Assembly (NCBI GenBank): GCA_016278485.1
Contig: JADQBT010000019.1
Span: 124,001 to 188,000 of the forward strand
Direction: 5' to 3'
Length of the DNA stretch: 64,000 nucleotides
Source: Halanaerobiales bacterium
GTDB taxonomy: Bacteria > Bacillota > Halanaerobiia > Halanaerobiales > Halanaerobiaceae
Position 1 is the first letter of the stretch, and each line of letters starts with the position of its first letter. Below, one piece after another: positions 44,035-62,742 of the stretch. Both the position numbers and the translations under genes were made by a program. The notes under the pieces are model-generated. The model was given only the letters and a program-made list of their open reading frames with translations, had not been told where the DNA came from and did not search any database.

Positions 44035-44092
44035 TAATGTGAAAAATATAACGAACATTTTAGTTAGTTAGATTGATTATTAAATAATTGGA

Positions 44093-44290
44093 TATTTACT
44101 CCGAGCTTTTTAACCTACGGATAAACTAAGGTTGCCTAGCCGTTAGGGTATTTCTGGAAACGGAAGTGCCTCCCGTTGTGGAAAGGAGTTCCTGTTTTCA
44201 AGGGAAACTTTTCACAGCGAAATTGCTTTCCTTCTGGGAAAGCTTTTTCTATATAGAGGCTATTTTAAGCGAAGGGAGGCTTAATAATTT
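44093..44290 (+). ncRNA. Probable molybdenum/tungsten cofactor riboswitch (Moco/Tuco-like leader)
   Basis: The long leader contains conserved-looking blocks in the order I remember for Moco RNAs: ACTCCGAGC (44098-44106), the hairpin AACCT/AGGTT (44112-44116 with 44129-44133), GCCTAGCCGTTAGGG, TGGAAACGGAAGTGCCTCCC (about 44154-44173) and TGTGGAAAGGAGT (44177-44189). ACTCC pairs with GGAGT to close the domain. It precedes a pterin-tungsten/molybdenum enzyme operon, the expected context. Boundaries are approximate; the Moco versus Tuco class and on/off sense were not determined. Confidence 0.7.
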
Positions 44291-55006: not shown

Positions 55007-55046
55007 TAAATTTAAATTGAAGTAAATTAATATGGGGGTGCTGTTT

Positions 55047-56477
55047 TTGCAAAATGTTAAAGGATCTAAGTTTTTGGAGAAAAAAAATAATTTAATGAAA
55101 GATATAATTGAGGAATTGACTAAGGAATTCAAGTATTGCTCAATTTTAGGTACTGACGTAAGGGGAAAAGAATATTTGGTACAAAAATCAGGTTCTAGTT
55201 TTAATGATTCAAACTGGAATGAAAGAGGTTTTGTAGTTAGAGTCTATAATGGAATAAATTATACTGAATATTCATTCAACCATTTAATTGCTGATAAAGT
55301 GGAGCAAATAATTGATGAAGTTAAAAAGAAAGCACAGCAAGAATTAAAATTAATAACTAAAAAATTTGAATTAATAAATTATCCTTTAGTTAATGAAGAT
55401 GAAATATCTGAAGAATATTTTGGAGAAGTTAAATTATTACCAAATAGTATTACCATAAGTGATAAATTATCTAAAATGAATAGGATTAAAGATAAAGCCC
55501 TTCCTTTATCAGAAAAAATAGTTGACTTTAGAGTCAGATATGAAGACGTTAAAGTATCAAAAGTATTTATTTCTAATAATAAGGAGTTAAAACAATCATA
55601 TATTTGGAGCCAGGGTTATTTAATAGCAATTGCTAGAAAAGATGATGATACCAGATTTTTTTATAAGACATTTTCTGGATTAAAAGGGCCTGAACTTTTA
55701 GATGAGATGGAAAATTCATATCAAGAAGTAGTTGAAAAAGCAGAGAGTTTAATTGGCACAGAACCACCTGAACCCGGTACATATGATGTTATTTGTGATC
55801 CGGATACTGCTGGTATAATTGCTCATGAGGCATTTGGCCATGGAGTGGAAGCAGATATGTTTGTAAAAAACAGAGCAAAAGCACTAGAATATTTAGATCG
55901 TGATGTAGCCTCCAAAAATGTTACCATGTATGATGGAGCTAGGTCTGCCAATCATGTTTCTTCCTATTTATTTGATGATGAAGGCACTATTGGCCAAAAT
56001 ACTAAAATAATAGATAATGGAATATTAAAAAAAGGAATTTCTGATCTTTTATCGGCTCTATTGAGGAAGACTGAACCGACAGGAAATGGTAAGCGTGAAT
56101 CCTATGAAAGAAAAGCATATTCCAGGATGACAAATACATTTTTTGCGTCAGGTGATGCCGAACTAGCTGAGATGATTGCTTCTATTGAAAGTGGTTACCT
56201 TCTAGAAAACCCAATGTCAGGCATGGAAGACCCTAAGAATTGGGGCATTCAATGTGTAATGATTTCTGGGAAAGAGATTAAAAACGGAAAACTAACCGGA
56301 AATATTGTAGCTCCTGTTCTAATGACCGGCTATGTACCAGATTTATTAAAAAATATTTCGATGGTTGCAAAAGAAGTTAAATTATCGGGTTCTGGTGCTT
56401 GTGGAAAGGGTTATAAGGAATTAGTTAAAGTTTCTTCAGGCGGTCCCTATATTAAAACTAAAGCGAGGTTGGGATAA
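55047..56477 (+). CDS. TldD family metalloprotease
   Basis: An approximately 476-residue TldD protein with the zinc motif HEAFGHGVEAD (HExxxH) at about residues 247-257, a distal conserved Cys/Gly region SGSGACGKGYKELVKVSSGGP and the central beta-rich fold. TldD/TldE heterodimers cleave unfolded peptides and mature some RiPPs such as microcin B17. ATG 55032 has no RBS; GGGGGTG at 55034-55040 is well placed for TTG 55047. It lies directly after galK and one base before the PmbA gene. Confidence 0.9.
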   Translation: MQNVKGSKFLEKKNNLMKDIIEELTKEFKYCSILGTDVRGKEYLVQKSGSSFNDSNWNERGFVVRVYNGINYTEYSFNHLIADKVEQIIDEVKKKAQQELKLITKKFELINYPLVNEDEISEEYFGEVKLLPNSITISDKLSKMNRIKDKALPLSEKIVDFRVRYEDVKVSKVFISNNKELKQSYIWSQGYLIAIARKDDDTRFFYKTFSGLKGPELLDEMENSYQEVVEKAESLIGTEPPEPGTYDVICDPDTAGIIAHEAFGHGVEADMFVKNRAKALEYLDRDVASKNVTMYDGARSANHVSSYLFDDEGTIGQNTKIIDNGILKKGISDLLSALLRKTEPTGNGKRESYERKAYSRMTNTFFASGDAELAEMIASIESGYLLENPMSGMEDPKNWGIQCVMISGKEIKNGKLTGNIVAPVLMTGYVPDLLKNISMVAKEVKLSGSGACGKGYKELVKVSSGGPYIKTKARLG

Positions 56478-56478
56478 T

Positions 56479-57780
56479 ATGATAAATAAAATAATTGAAA
56501 TATTAAATGCAACTAATGAGATAGATGCCTGGAAATTAACAGAGAGAAAAACAAAGAGTAGTGAACTATTTTTTATAAAAAATAAGTTAGAAATGAATAG
56601 AGGAAAAGATGTAGTAAAATACAAAATATCTGTTTATAATGATTTTAGTAATAATGAACATAAATATAGAGGTTCTGCAGATGTAGAATTATTACCTGAT
56701 ATGGAAAGAGAAGAAATAGAACAAATTATTCAGGAAGCTGCAGTTGGTGCTTCATTTATCAAAAATAAATATTATCCCTTAGCAGATCCAGTTGAAATTG
56801 ATTACAATGTGCCTGCCAGTGATTTTTATGATAATAGTTTTGCTGATATTTTATCACAAATTAGTGAAGCTCTTTTTGAGAGTGATAATTTTGATAATGG
56901 AGGATTAAATTCTGCAGAATTATTCTTAAATGAGCATCAGATAAGAATTATAAATTCTAAAGGAGTGGATAATAGTTATCAAAAAAGAGTATTAGATATT
57001 GATTTCATTACTAATTGGCAGGAAAACTCAGAAGAAATTGAGTTATCTAAAATAATTACATTAGCTGAATTCGATCTTGATACAATAATAAATACAGTAC
57101 GTGAAATGCTAATTCAGAGTAGAGAAAGGTCAAAAGCAGAATCCCTTCCAAATATAAATGATATTCCAGTGATATTAACTGGAAGTTCTGTTAAAGAATT
57201 ATTAGAATATTTTTATGTACAGGCGAATGCTAAGCAGATATATGAAAATGTATCAATCGCTGAGATTGGTGAGTCAATGCAAGGAAAAGAGATCAAAGGT
57301 GATAAAGTAGATCTTTTATTAGATCCTAATCTCTCGGGTTCTACGCATAGTGTTCCATTTGATAAAGATGGTTTTCCGTTATCTGCTCAAAAGATAATTG
57401 AAGGAGGAAAACTCCTGCAATTCTGGGGAGATATTCGATTTTCACATTATCTTGGGATCGAAGCAACTGGTGATATTAAGAATTTATCCTTTGCGGAGGG
57501 GAGTTATTCTGAAAAAGAATTGAAAAGTGAACCACATTTAGAATTACTAGTTTTTTCTAATTTTCAAATGGACCATCTGGCTGGTAACTTTGGGGGAGAG
57601 ATAAGATTGGGAAGATATTTTGATGGGGAAAAATCAATCCCAGTTACAGGAGGATCTATTTCGGCAAACATAAATAAAATAAAGAATGATATGCTTTTAT
57701 CTATAGAGAAGCAGCAAATAAATAATTATTATGGTCCTAAATTTATAAAATTAAATAATATAAGTATTGCAGGTGGATAG
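56479..57780 (+). CDS. PmbA/TldE family protease subunit
   Basis: A 433-residue PmbA/TldE homologue lacking the zinc motif, as expected for the non-catalytic partner. It has the YFYVQANAKQIYEN region, DLLLDPNLSGSTHSVPFDKDG and the C-terminal FQMDHLAGNFGGEIRLGRYFD. It starts one base after the TldD stop, consistent with a TldD-TldE complex. Confidence 0.88.
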   Translation: MINKIIEILNATNEIDAWKLTERKTKSSELFFIKNKLEMNRGKDVVKYKISVYNDFSNNEHKYRGSADVELLPDMEREEIEQIIQEAAVGASFIKNKYYPLADPVEIDYNVPASDFYDNSFADILSQISEALFESDNFDNGGLNSAELFLNEHQIRIINSKGVDNSYQKRVLDIDFITNWQENSEEIELSKIITLAEFDLDTIINTVREMLIQSRERSKAESLPNINDIPVILTGSSVKELLEYFYVQANAKQIYENVSIAEIGESMQGKEIKGDKVDLLLDPNLSGSTHSVPFDKDGFPLSAQKIIEGGKLLQFWGDIRFSHYLGIEATGDIKNLSFAEGSYSEKELKSEPHLELLVFSNFQMDHLAGNFGGEIRLGRYFDGEKSIPVTGGSISANINKIKNDMLLSIEKQQINNYYGPKFIKLNNISIAGG

Positions 57781-60468: not shown

Positions 60469-60502
60469 AAAAAGTTTTGCTTACAAAAGCAAAACTTTTT
60501 TT
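60469..60502 (+). terminator. Rho-independent terminator
   Basis: AAAAAGTTTTGC pairs with GCAAAACTTTTT around an 8-nt loop and runs into T7. Confidence 0.9.
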
Positions 60503-60522
60503 ATTGTTCTTATAATAAATAA

Positions 60523-60549
60523 AGGAGTTTGCTGTCATATATTGAATTA
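60523..60549 (+). promoter_or_regulatory. SigH-like promoter of the peptide / HD-GYP module
   Basis: AGGAGTT at 60523-60529, 11 nt, then ATTGAATTA at 60541-60549. This resembles the SigH consensus RnAGGAwwT-N11/12-RnnGAATww. A SigA-like TATAAT lies at 60548-60553 without a matching -35. SigH use is inferred from pattern alone. Confidence 0.45.
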
Positions 60550-60581
60550 TAATAAAAGAAAATATCTGGCGGCACACTAGA

Positions 60582-60656
60582 CTAGCCTAATTTAAATAGC
60601 TTAGCTTACCTTCGTTACTATGAGCTTAGAAAATTTTTAAAACGAAGGGAGGCTGT
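60582..60656 (+). promoter_or_regulatory. Structured leader that can hide the ribosome binding site of the 29-codon ORF
   Basis: CCTTCGTT at 60609-60616 pairs with AACGAAGG at 60641-60648, and AGCCT at 60584-60588 pairs with AGGCT at 60650-60654. Together they bury the GAAGGGAGG site (60644-60652) just before the ATG at 60661. This suggests translational control. It does not match the c-di-GMP-I or -II riboswitch cores I know. Confidence 0.5.
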
Positions 60657-60660
60657 TTTA

Positions 60661-60750
60661 ATGAAAAAGCTTTATTTATTAGTTACAACAGCTCTTATTA
60701 CTATGGCTGCAACAATTTCTGCTTTAGCTGACTCTACTAGATGGGGTTAA
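60661..60750 (+). CDS. 29-residue exported peptide, candidate signal-peptide precursor
   Basis: The ORF encodes MKKLYLLVTTALITMAATIS followed by ALADSTRWG. Two Lys, a hydrophobic core and an Ala-x-Ala site make a complete Sec signal peptide, and cleavage after SALA would leave only the hexapeptide DSTRWG. There is no Cys and no lipobox. A strong GAAGGGAGG site sits 8 nt upstream, in a leader hairpin. The next gene, 59 bp on, is a multi-TM HD-GYP protein. The layout recalls Phr-type pheromone precursors, but no RRNPP receptor is adjacent. Function is inferred. Confidence 0.6.
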   Translation: MKKLYLLVTTALITMAATISALADSTRWG

Positions 60751-60809
60751 TTTAATTTATTAATTAAATGTGCTGTCAGATATAACTATTATTATAAGAG
60801 GTAATTTAA

Positions 60810-62105
60810 TTGAAAAAATCATTAAAAATTTATTTAATAGCTGCATTTTTTTTGTTTGTCTTTTTATTAATTAGTTTAGTGAATAATTATGGCAAATTAA
60901 TATCAATTGAAGAAATAATTTTTTTTATTATTTCGTTATTTATTGTTAGCAATATGAGTATTTTGATGAATTCTTCAAGTGATTTTATTATTTCAATGAA
61001 TATTCCAGTTTTGTTACCAACATTTGCTCTTTTATCTCCATTAGGCGCGGCTGTAACAGCTGCATTAGGTACTATAGAATGGACCAAACAAAGAAATCAT
61101 TTTGTTTGGTATAAATTTTTGTTTAACAGAATTATGTTTTTTGTTGCTGCAGGTATAGGTGGTATAGTTTTTGAAATAATTAATAATAGCTTAACAGTTA
61201 ATTATCAACTTATTTCTTTGTTTATCGCAGCTTTAGCATACTTTTTTGTTAATAATGCATTAGTTTACATAGTTGTTAAGTTATCGAAAAACGGAAGAGA
61301 AAGCAACTCTTTTTTAGTATATCTAGCTGAATTAGTAAAAAATTTAATAACTTCATATTTCTTAGGTGTTCTTTTATATTATTCATATATTGAATTCGGT
61401 AAATTATTTTTTATTCTTGTAATTATATTACTTTATATTTTAAAAGATTTTTTTTATTCTCGCATTCAACAACTGAATTCATATACACAGATTATTGAAA
61501 GTTTTTTAAAAGTAATTGATTCAAAAGACCATTACACAGAAGGTCATTGTATGCGGGTGGCAGAATATACTTCAGAGTTAAGTAATGCCTTGAAATTATC
61601 TAGTCTTAAAAGAGAGAAGATAATTAGTGTAGCAAAAATTCATGACATAGGAAAAATTGGTGTTTCGGATAAAATTCTAAAAAGTTCTGAAAAACTTACT
61701 ATAAAAGAATATGAAGAAATTAAAAAACATACTACCTATGGATACGAACTACTAAAAGATATTGATTTAGTAAATGATCAATTGGACATTATTCTTTACC
61801 ATCATGAAAGATTTGATGGGACAGGTTATCCAAAAGGGATAAAAGCAAAAAATATTCCAATCGGAGCCAGAATATTAAGTGTTTGTGATGCTTTTGATGT
61901 GATGACAAGAGGAAGAAAATATAAAGCAGCTATGTCAAAAGCTGAAATTATAAAGGAATTTAAAGAGTGTGCTGGAACTCAGTTTGATCCAGATGCTGTA
62001 GAAGCGATGTTGAAATTGATTGAACGAGGGACTTTTGATCATTGTTTTCTGGAAAAAGAAATAGTGGAGGGATTAGATGTTCAAGCAGTTAAGTCAAACT
62101 ATTGA
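60810..62105 (+). CDS. Multi-TM membrane protein with cytoplasmic HD-GYP phosphodiesterase domain
   Basis: A 431-residue protein. Residues about 1-220 are a membrane domain with roughly 7-8 TM helices, with charged loops but no recognised Cache or PAS domain. Residues about 228-415 are an HD-GYP domain with all key residues: H278-D279 in IHDIGKIGVSDKIL, HTTYGYELL, H331-H332 and G337-T-G-Y-P in FDGTGYPKG. Such domains hydrolyse c-di-GMP to GMP or pGpG. TTG start preceded by AAGAGGT. It lies downstream of the 29-codon ORF and overlaps the next gene by 29 bp, so the membrane domain may sense an external signal. Confidence 0.9.
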   Translation: MKKSLKIYLIAAFFLFVFLLISLVNNYGKLISIEEIIFFIISLFIVSNMSILMNSSSDFIISMNIPVLLPTFALLSPLGAAVTAALGTIEWTKQRNHFVWYKFLFNRIMFFVAAGIGGIVFEIINNSLTVNYQLISLFIAALAYFFVNNALVYIVVKLSKNGRESNSFLVYLAELVKNLITSYFLGVLLYYSYIEFGKLFFILVIILLYILKDFFYSRIQQLNSYTQIIESFLKVIDSKDHYTEGHCMRVAEYTSELSNALKLSSLKREKIISVAKIHDIGKIGVSDKILKSSEKLTIKEYEEIKKHTTYGYELLKDIDLVNDQLDIILYHHERFDGTGYPKGIKAKNIPIGARILSVCDAFDVMTRGRKYKAAMSKAEIIKEFKECAGTQFDPDAVEAMLKLIERGTFDHCFLEKEIVEGLDVQAVKSNY

Positions 62106-62685
62106 GGAATTAGATGGTGTGTTTTCTTGTAAAATAACAGGAAAAAATTCAATTGATGAAATTCATATTATTGCGAGTAAAGCAAGAGAACCAAAAAAAA
62201 TAGTACGTGATATTGAGACAATTGTACTTGTTAATCTTGATGAGAAAATTGATCATAAAAAAATTAGCATTGCCCAGGTGAAATTTGCAAATGAGGAAGA
62301 CAATAAGAACAGAGTAGAGTTAATTTCTATTTATTGTGAAAATAATAGACCAGTCTGTCATCTGCAAATAAATATTAATGATGAAAAAATAATAGAGACT
62401 TTTACTAGTAACCCAGGGGAGACGAATGAGAAATTAATTGCAAGAAGTGTAGTAGAAACTATTAGCCATTATACTCATTTCAAAAAACAAATAATTGTAG
62501 ATGATGTTTTCACAATAGAAGGTAAGGATAGATTAGTTTTAGTGAAATTGAATATTTATAATCAAAATGAAAATAGAATTGAGAAAAAATTAGTAGGGGC
62601 AGTATATTTTGATAATGTTCTTCCTTCATCGATTGGGAAAGCTTGTTTAAAGGCTTTGAATAGACAATTACATAATTATATTTAG
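62077..62685 (+). CDS. Unrecognised protein coupled to the HD-GYP gene
   Basis: A 202-residue soluble protein, overlapping the HD-GYP gene by 29 bp and so translationally coupled. The N-terminal part (about 5-72) has a strand-helix pattern with DEIHIIASKAREPKKIVRDI and IDHKKISIAQVKF. I recall similar EIHVLA...PKQIVRDIE...DHKKISIA stretches in unnamed proteins of other Firmicutes. The C-terminal part (about 80-202) is a second alpha/beta domain with VELISIYCENNRPVCHLQI. No catalytic or metal motif is visible, and no signal peptide or TM helix. A regulatory partner of the HD-GYP protein is a guess from coupling. Confidence 0.75.
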   Translation: MFKQLSQTIEELDGVFSCKITGKNSIDEIHIIASKAREPKKIVRDIETIVLVNLDEKIDHKKISIAQVKFANEEDNKNRVELISIYCENNRPVCHLQININDEKIIETFTSNPGETNEKLIARSVVETISHYTHFKKQIIVDDVFTIEGKDRLVLVKLNIYNQNENRIEKKLVGAVYFDNVLPSSIGKACLKALNRQLHNYI

Positions 62686-62706
62686 ATTTAGCATAATTAT
62701 ATTTTA

Positions 62707-62742
62707 TCTAAAACAGTCAGCATTTTTGCTGGCTGTTTTAGA
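62707..62742 (+). terminator. Strong hairpin terminator
   Basis: TCTAAAACAGTCAGCA pairs with TGCTGGCTGTTTTAGA (16 bp, one G-T) around TTTT. The following T-run is interrupted. Confidence 0.75.

Follow-up and report, generated by a model that had tools for sequence, protein, structure and literature searches.

The module described here lies in a window of 64,000 nucleotides (the whole stretch of DNA analysed) from a Halanaerobiales bacterium, and consists of a 29-codon open reading frame (ORF), a TTG-started gene for a membrane HD-GYP protein, and a gene for a 202-residue partner protein, PT (Table 1). All three are on the + strand, flanked on the left by the upstream gene's terminator (60469-60500) and on the right by an inverted repeat (62710-62739). 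The ORF is preceded by the Shine-Dalgarno sequence AAGGGAGG and is translated as MKKLYLLVTTALITMAATISALADSTRWG, while the PT gene overlaps the HD-GYP gene by 29 bp. An earlier, sequence-only reading of this DNA had listed the three ORFs and the overlap, all of which are accurate on re-reading, together with intact HD-GYP motifs (HD and HHERFDGTGYP are indeed present) and two flanking terminators, of which the left one was computed and the right one read from the sequence. That description of the parts stands, but it left out the structured RNA and the promoter upstream of the ORF. The neighbours of the peptide locus are DJ-1/PfpI, HD-GYP, PT and NlpC/P60, and the gene order in most other Bacillota is partner - peptide - HD-GYP. 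About 3 kb upstream of the module are two adjacent genes (55032-57780) for TldD/PmbA-type metallopeptidases, a family known for peptide processing. The window also carries a molybdenum/tungsten cofactor riboswitch at 44087-44204 (RF01055, 73.9 bits).

Table 1. Features of the peptide/HD-GYP module, in window coordinates
Feature	Position	Strand	Basis
Upstream gene's intrinsic terminator, module's left border	60469..60500	+	14-pair stem, then TTTATTG
Putative SigH-type promoter, AGGA-N17-GAAT	60523..60547	+	Same 25-nt span in 17/18 Halanaerobiales loci
P1 helix, 5′ arm, ATATCTGGCGGCACA	60562..60576	+	Pairing with 60769-60783, phylum-wide covariation
Leader motif copy 1, TAGCCTA	60583..60589	+	Motif comparison
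Leader motif copy 2, TAGCTTAG	60597..60604	+	Motif density in leaders ~200x that of the remaining sequence of these loci
P2 helix, 5′ strand, anti-Shine-Dalgarno, AGCTTACCTTCGTT	60603..60616	+	Pairing with 60641-60654 kept by compensatory changes
Leader motif copy 3, GAGCTTAG, in P2 loop	60622..60629	+	Motif comparison, RNAalifold
P2 helix, 3′ strand, holds peptide Shine-Dalgarno AAGGGAGG	60641..60654	+	Sequence, RNAalifold
Micropeptide ORF, 29 codons, MKKLYLLVTTALITMAATISALA-DSTRWG	60661..60750	+	Translation, conservation, coding pattern, profile search
P1 helix, 3′ arm, TGTGCTGTCAGATAT, 18 nt past stop codon	60769..60783	+	Pairing, covariation
Membrane HD-GYP protein, 431 aa, TTG start	60810..62105	+	N-terminal MASE9-like domain (divergent), joined through a stalk helix to the HD-GYP domain
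Partner protein PT, 202 aa, conserved	62077..62685	+	CDF-C-terminal-like and LeuA/citramalate-synthase-regulatory-like domains (predicted)
Terminator-like inverted repeat and T run, AAAACAGTCAGCATTTTTGCTGGCTGTTTT, right border of module	62710..62739	+	Sequence inspection

The putative promoter agrees with the SigH pattern RnAGGAwWW - spacer - RnnGAAT, and the transcription start predicted from it falls just before the 5′ arm of the RNA helix P1. The AGGA-N17-GAAT pattern by itself is not rare in the window, so the evidence for a promoter is its conservation with an invariant span. The genome encodes SigH (331.6 bits, cut-off 294.8), and the spacing fits SigH promoters; the promoter is here called SigH-like.

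The membrane protein is placed in the HD-GYP family by its domain (HD_5, E=9.8e-33), its HHERFDGTGYP motif and its predicted fold (4mcw, Z 26.3), and is a putative c-di-GMP phosphodiesterase. The AlphaFold2 models of this protein and of PT are confident (pLDDT 89 and 92, respectively). The window protein gives no match to MASE9 (PF20972) at the Pfam cut-off of 24.3 bits, while its homologues in the same locus position, whose alignment with it is colinear, pass as MASE9 plus HD_5; it is therefore referred to as MASE9-like rather than as a member of the family. The best match of the modelled membrane domain (residues 1-199) outside HD proteins is the ECF S-component 4m58 (Z 12.1, 180 residues, 3.7 Å), followed by FolT, RibU and PanT (Z 10-11), values to be read with the caution that Z below 13 between helical bundles can reflect a common arrangement. 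Foldseek relates the domain to S-components with E about 1 and a probability of 0.75-0.80. We take the membrane domain for a divergent form of MASE9, with a modelled fold moderately similar to that of ECF S-components, a point absent from the earlier reading. In Clostridia-type loci, a DUF5317 membrane protein is encoded directly after the HD-GYP gene (L190:7200-7766, L198:7148-7711, L183:7220-7783 and L207:8544-9068), which suggests that it is a fourth member of the ancestral operon.

PT matches no Pfam or NCBIfam model, and no solved relatives were found by sequence. In its model, the N-terminal domain resembles cation diffusion facilitator C-terminal domains, while the C-terminal half is similar to the regulatory domain with which citramalate synthase binds isoleucine (3f6g, Z 10.0, 112 residues, 2.7 Å); the LeuA regulatory Pfam model reaches this half in relatives with E=0.1, below the cut-off. 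The PT family also occurs in loci of Chloroflexota, Zixibacteria and Gemmatimonadota (L195, L222 and L226) that have no recognised HD-GYP gene.

The HD-GYP and PT neighbours are found in Halanaerobiales relatives with ~45-55% identity, and the small ORF is present in every one of these relatives with enough upstream sequence (e.g. MKKLYIAITTALITFGTAISVLA-ESSRW and MKKWYVAILTGLITILSTLSVLA-ESTHWN). A PT scan of named genomes finds the same arrangement in Desulfosporosinus, Thermincola, Clostridium, Fonticella, Caloranaerobacter and others. Inspection of 67 loci, taken from a MASE9 profile search of 199 Bacillota genomes, places an ORF of 24-28 residues just upstream of at least 43 of the 50 MASE9-HD-GYP genes (e.g. 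MKNIVKAILALVALVLAGGGSVWW and MAKLFKVLTALTALLLAGGATWRW), versus none of the 17 MASE9 proteins with GGDEF or other outputs. Two apparent exceptions among the MASE9-HD-GYP loci (L133 and L138, one family) carry a divergent version of the peptide, in which the RNA and the C-terminal K-W are kept and an Arg lies inside the hydrophobic core, so that a clean Sec signal is not universal. Tandem second MASE9-HD-GYP-like genes lacking a peptide ORF are seen at L207:7269-8522, L211:3636-4889 and L220:8106-9350, and two Armatimonadota-like loci (L216 and L219) have in the same place, ~75-195 nt upstream of HD-GYP, a different signal-like ORF of 38 residues (MKYWLTMLLLLVVWATTYGAKLEIYPPPKPPPPPSASY).

A 24-residue profile of the peptide only, built without any HD-GYP information, matches ~43 of the 199 Bacillota genomes at E < 1e-6, with essentially one strong match per genome, and reaches genomes that the MASE9 profile had missed (L271, L275 and L278). 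The best 30 matches have a membrane HD-GYP ORF directly downstream, verified in 28, while the other two (L256 and L280) end at a contig edge. The same ORF filter is positive upstream of 45/60 membrane HD-GYP genes versus 4/451 other genes, and two of these four are true family members. No Pfam or NCBIfam model matches the peptide family at a meaningful score. Judged by this comparison, the peptide is a member of a Bacillota-wide micropeptide family of 24-29 residues, and a dedicated functional link between it and the membrane HD-GYP protein is well supported. The sequence-only reading had made its proposal dependent on conservation of the ORF next to homologous HD-GYP genes and on a protein-coding pattern of substitutions; the former is found in the Halanaerobiales relatives, at the MASE9-HD-GYP loci and among the best 30 profile matches alike.

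The coding pattern is found as well. In 27 independent pairs, the ORF has accumulated 175 nonsynonymous and 163 synonymous substitutions, where 248 nonsynonymous are expected and the lowest count in 1000 simulations is 227, and the changes are distributed 90/63/185 over the three codon positions. On this pattern, the ORF is under purifying selection. It had also been predicted that the signal would be conserved and the end variable, which agrees with a pN/pS of 0.26 in the peptide core versus 0.52 in the last five codons; the latter value places the variable tail under purifying selection too, with no positive selection. Start, stop and a good Shine-Dalgarno sequence are conserved across the peptide ORFs.

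The best conserved residues lie at a would-be signal peptidase site. Outside the Halanaerobiales, this is an AGG site with invariant A at -2 and G at 0 (60/60 each), followed by Trp at +5 in 43/60, and in the Halanaerobiales an A-x-A site with Trp at position 5 after it (DSTRW, ESTHW and DTSKW). The non-polar stretch before the putative cleavage site mostly spans 10 or 13 residues (66/89 peptides). Such a length is less than a membrane span normally needs and is common in the h-region of signal peptides. The distance from the predicted cleavage site to the stop codon varies among peptides, favouring cleavage over arrest at the stop codon. A precursor of 24-29 residues is short for the Sec pathway.

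The peptide ORF is also, by covariation, enclosed by a long-range RNA helix, P1, that covaries across the phylum and whose 5′ arm lies ~85 nt ahead of the peptide start codon in this locus. P1 was scored by a strict helix search with a non-cognate control, a free duplex search having proved insufficiently selective where loci are GC-rich. Over 92 distinct loci, the mean best helix score is 32.2 for cognate arms versus 19.9 for arms from different loci. The arms change in sequence while their pairing is kept, an observation on a set chosen for pairing, for which the cognate versus non-cognate score is the fair control. G-U pairs (53) far exceed A-C pairs (6), pointing to a structure in the sense RNA. 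For the Halanaerobiales, RNAalifold returns both P1 and a second helix, P2, with compensatory change in 8/23 pairs, and P2 pairs with the Shine-Dalgarno sequence of the peptide.

The leaders are further marked by the motifs [TG]AGCGGAG or [TG]AGC[TC]TAG, at 4.7-5.8 per kb versus 0.02-0.03 elsewhere in the same loci. In clostridial leaders, one UAGCGGA copy, the equivalent of copy 3 in Table 1, occupies the loop of a hairpin placed 38-47 nt upstream of the start codon, on a stem that varies freely. RNAalifold on a MAFFT alignment of these leaders returns no structure, as stem lengths vary and the alignment slips; a per-locus search gives a mean stem of 5.7 versus 3.5 in shuffles, a gap somewhat flattered by taking the best of several motif positions, and at least 6 pairs in 45/86 loci. 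In its own genome, the covariance model of the leader has a single strong match, and across 41 genomes the RNA is present in 23/25 that bear PT and in 0/16 that do not; one of the two PT-bearing exceptions is a contig end and the other a PT gene without HD-GYP. A general riboswitch with copies elsewhere was rejected on the basis of this single strong place, restricted to genomes with this locus. A known riboswitch or other RNA family was also rejected: at gathering score, Rfam matches neither the peptide locus of the window nor that of relatives.

Taken together, regulation of the HD-GYP protein by the peptide is the best explanation of these observations, with export, ligand role and an effect on c-di-GMP as its presumed elements. 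Two other explanations of the same data need to be weighed, both of them less probable. The first, which the earlier reading did not consider, is a cis-acting leader peptide, in which ribosomes translating the ORF, or stalling on it, would shift P1/P2 and hence expression of HD-GYP, the peptide itself having no target. This would account for the position of the ORF, always in cis within P1, and for an RNA found in a single copy per genome, exclusively with this locus. In addition, the 3′ arm of P1 frequently starts 7-22 nt past the stop codon with a moderate T enrichment behind it, and this combination could act as a regulated terminator. However, arrest peptides usually conserve residues beside the stalled codon, and here the strong amino-acid conservation is in the signal-like core, far from the stop, with a variable distance from AGG to stop. 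Moreover, the Halanaerobiales RNA hides the ribosome-binding site of the peptide itself, suggesting that it is the peptide whose production is regulated. We consider a leader peptide without a target unlikely.

The second explanation, which we find about as unlikely, is an uncut membrane microprotein, a single-helix subunit that would bind and tune the 7-8 TM MASE9 domain in the manner of KdpF, AcrZ or MgrB. It fits the hydrophobic core between a basic N-terminus and an interfacial aromatic/basic C-terminus, the invariant AGG (which could pack in the membrane) and the strict linkage to MASE9-HD-GYP, and it accommodates the Arg-containing variants more easily. It fits less well with the 10-13 residue non-polar stretch of most members, short for a span, and with the placing of the best-kept residues at the would-be signal peptidase site with a Trp at a fixed distance after it. 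The notion that the ORF is merely a chance hydrophobic frame, untranslated, in a conserved untranslated leader is barely tenable: the region is indeed a conserved RNA, and RNA constraint alone can conserve sequence, but the synonymous excess and third-position bias, the conserved start, stop and Shine-Dalgarno, and the recovery of loci by a protein profile alone all speak against it, and within the limits of comparative evidence the substitutions, the unequal yield of the ORF filter and the peptide-only profile rule it out.

The reading we favour is thus a unit for signalling or regulation, conserved and encoded in cis (structured RNA, micropeptide, membrane HD-GYP and partner), in which an exported and cleaved peptide acts on the MASE9-like domain, and we assign it a probability of roughly 0.45. 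In this proposed mechanism, the peptide would enter the membrane via its signal-like N-terminus and be cut by signal peptidase after A-x-A or A-G-G, releasing a peptide of 5-6 residues with Trp at position 5, here DSTRWG. The mature peptide, or its precursor, would bind within the MASE9 domain, at the pocket that resembles an ECF S-component, and would alter c-di-GMP hydrolysis by the HD-GYP domain. The RNA would set the amount of peptide relative to enzyme, in Halanaerobiales by hiding the peptide ribosome-binding site, and SigH would turn the unit on as cells enter stationary phase. A more far-reaching version, in which a secreted, species-variable Trp pentapeptide serves extracellular signalling throughout the Bacillota, with an S-component-like receptor that is itself a c-di-GMP phosphodiesterase and dosage set by a new RNA element around the ORF, seems to us rather less likely.

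The ligands of the MASE-type domains that feed many c-di-GMP enzymes are mostly unknown, and a gene-encoded candidate ligand that accompanies one of these domains through much of the Bacillota would make the question directly testable. If the favoured reading is true, a peptide-regulated c-di-GMP phosphodiesterase would join the known peptide systems, and with it would come a family of micropeptides that standard annotation passes over for their size, and an RNA element with a small ORF at its centre. In the literature, of which our coverage is incomplete, we found no account of such a peptide, of such a leader RNA, or of a ligand or peptide partner of MASE9.

Among the known peptide systems, Phr/Rap of Bacillus has a short precursor (~40 residues) with a signal-like N-terminus, a product of 5-6 residues and a gene beside that of its receptor, and several phr genes have a SigH-type promoter. 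The window module shares the signal-like short precursor, a putative C-terminal product of 5-6 residues, a gene beside that of the presumed receptor and a SigH-type promoter. It differs in its shorter precursor (24-29 residues versus about 40), in showing no sign of re-import by Opp, in having a membrane HD-GYP protein as presumed receptor, and in the structured RNA wrapped around the ORF. No Rap/TPR receptor is found among the neighbours of the peptide locus, so the comparison with Phr is an analogy only; of the earlier proposal that a peptide controls c-di-GMP, the dedicated link to HD-GYP has gained support from conservation and coding pattern, while the Phr parallel is reduced to this analogy. 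The streptococcal SHP/ComS peptides, which have hydrophobic precursors of ~17-24 residues with an aromatic or Gly-rich end and are encoded beside their receptors, share with the window peptide their shortness, their hydrophobic character, the kind of end and the gene beside a receptor (the receptor here being presumed). Their Rgg receptors, however, are cytosolic transcription factors, and the likeness to the window peptide is one of description.

For the other components, MASE9 (PF20972)-HD-GYP proteins are represented by the relatives in the same locus position, which share MASE9 and HD_5, with the window protein itself below PF20972 detection. The likeness to ECF S-components (NikM, FolT, RibU and PanT) is moderate and structural only, being that of the predicted fold of residues 1-199; the window domain differs in its fusion to HD-GYP through a stalk, and there is no ECF module at the locus. 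The leader resembles the c-di-GMP-I and -II riboswitches as a structured RNA in a c-di-GMP gene locus, but it has no useful Rfam score and is distinguished by the ORF inside P1 and by its repeated AGCGGAG loops. Each part of the unit belongs to a kind already known; what is new, to the extent checked, is how they are combined.
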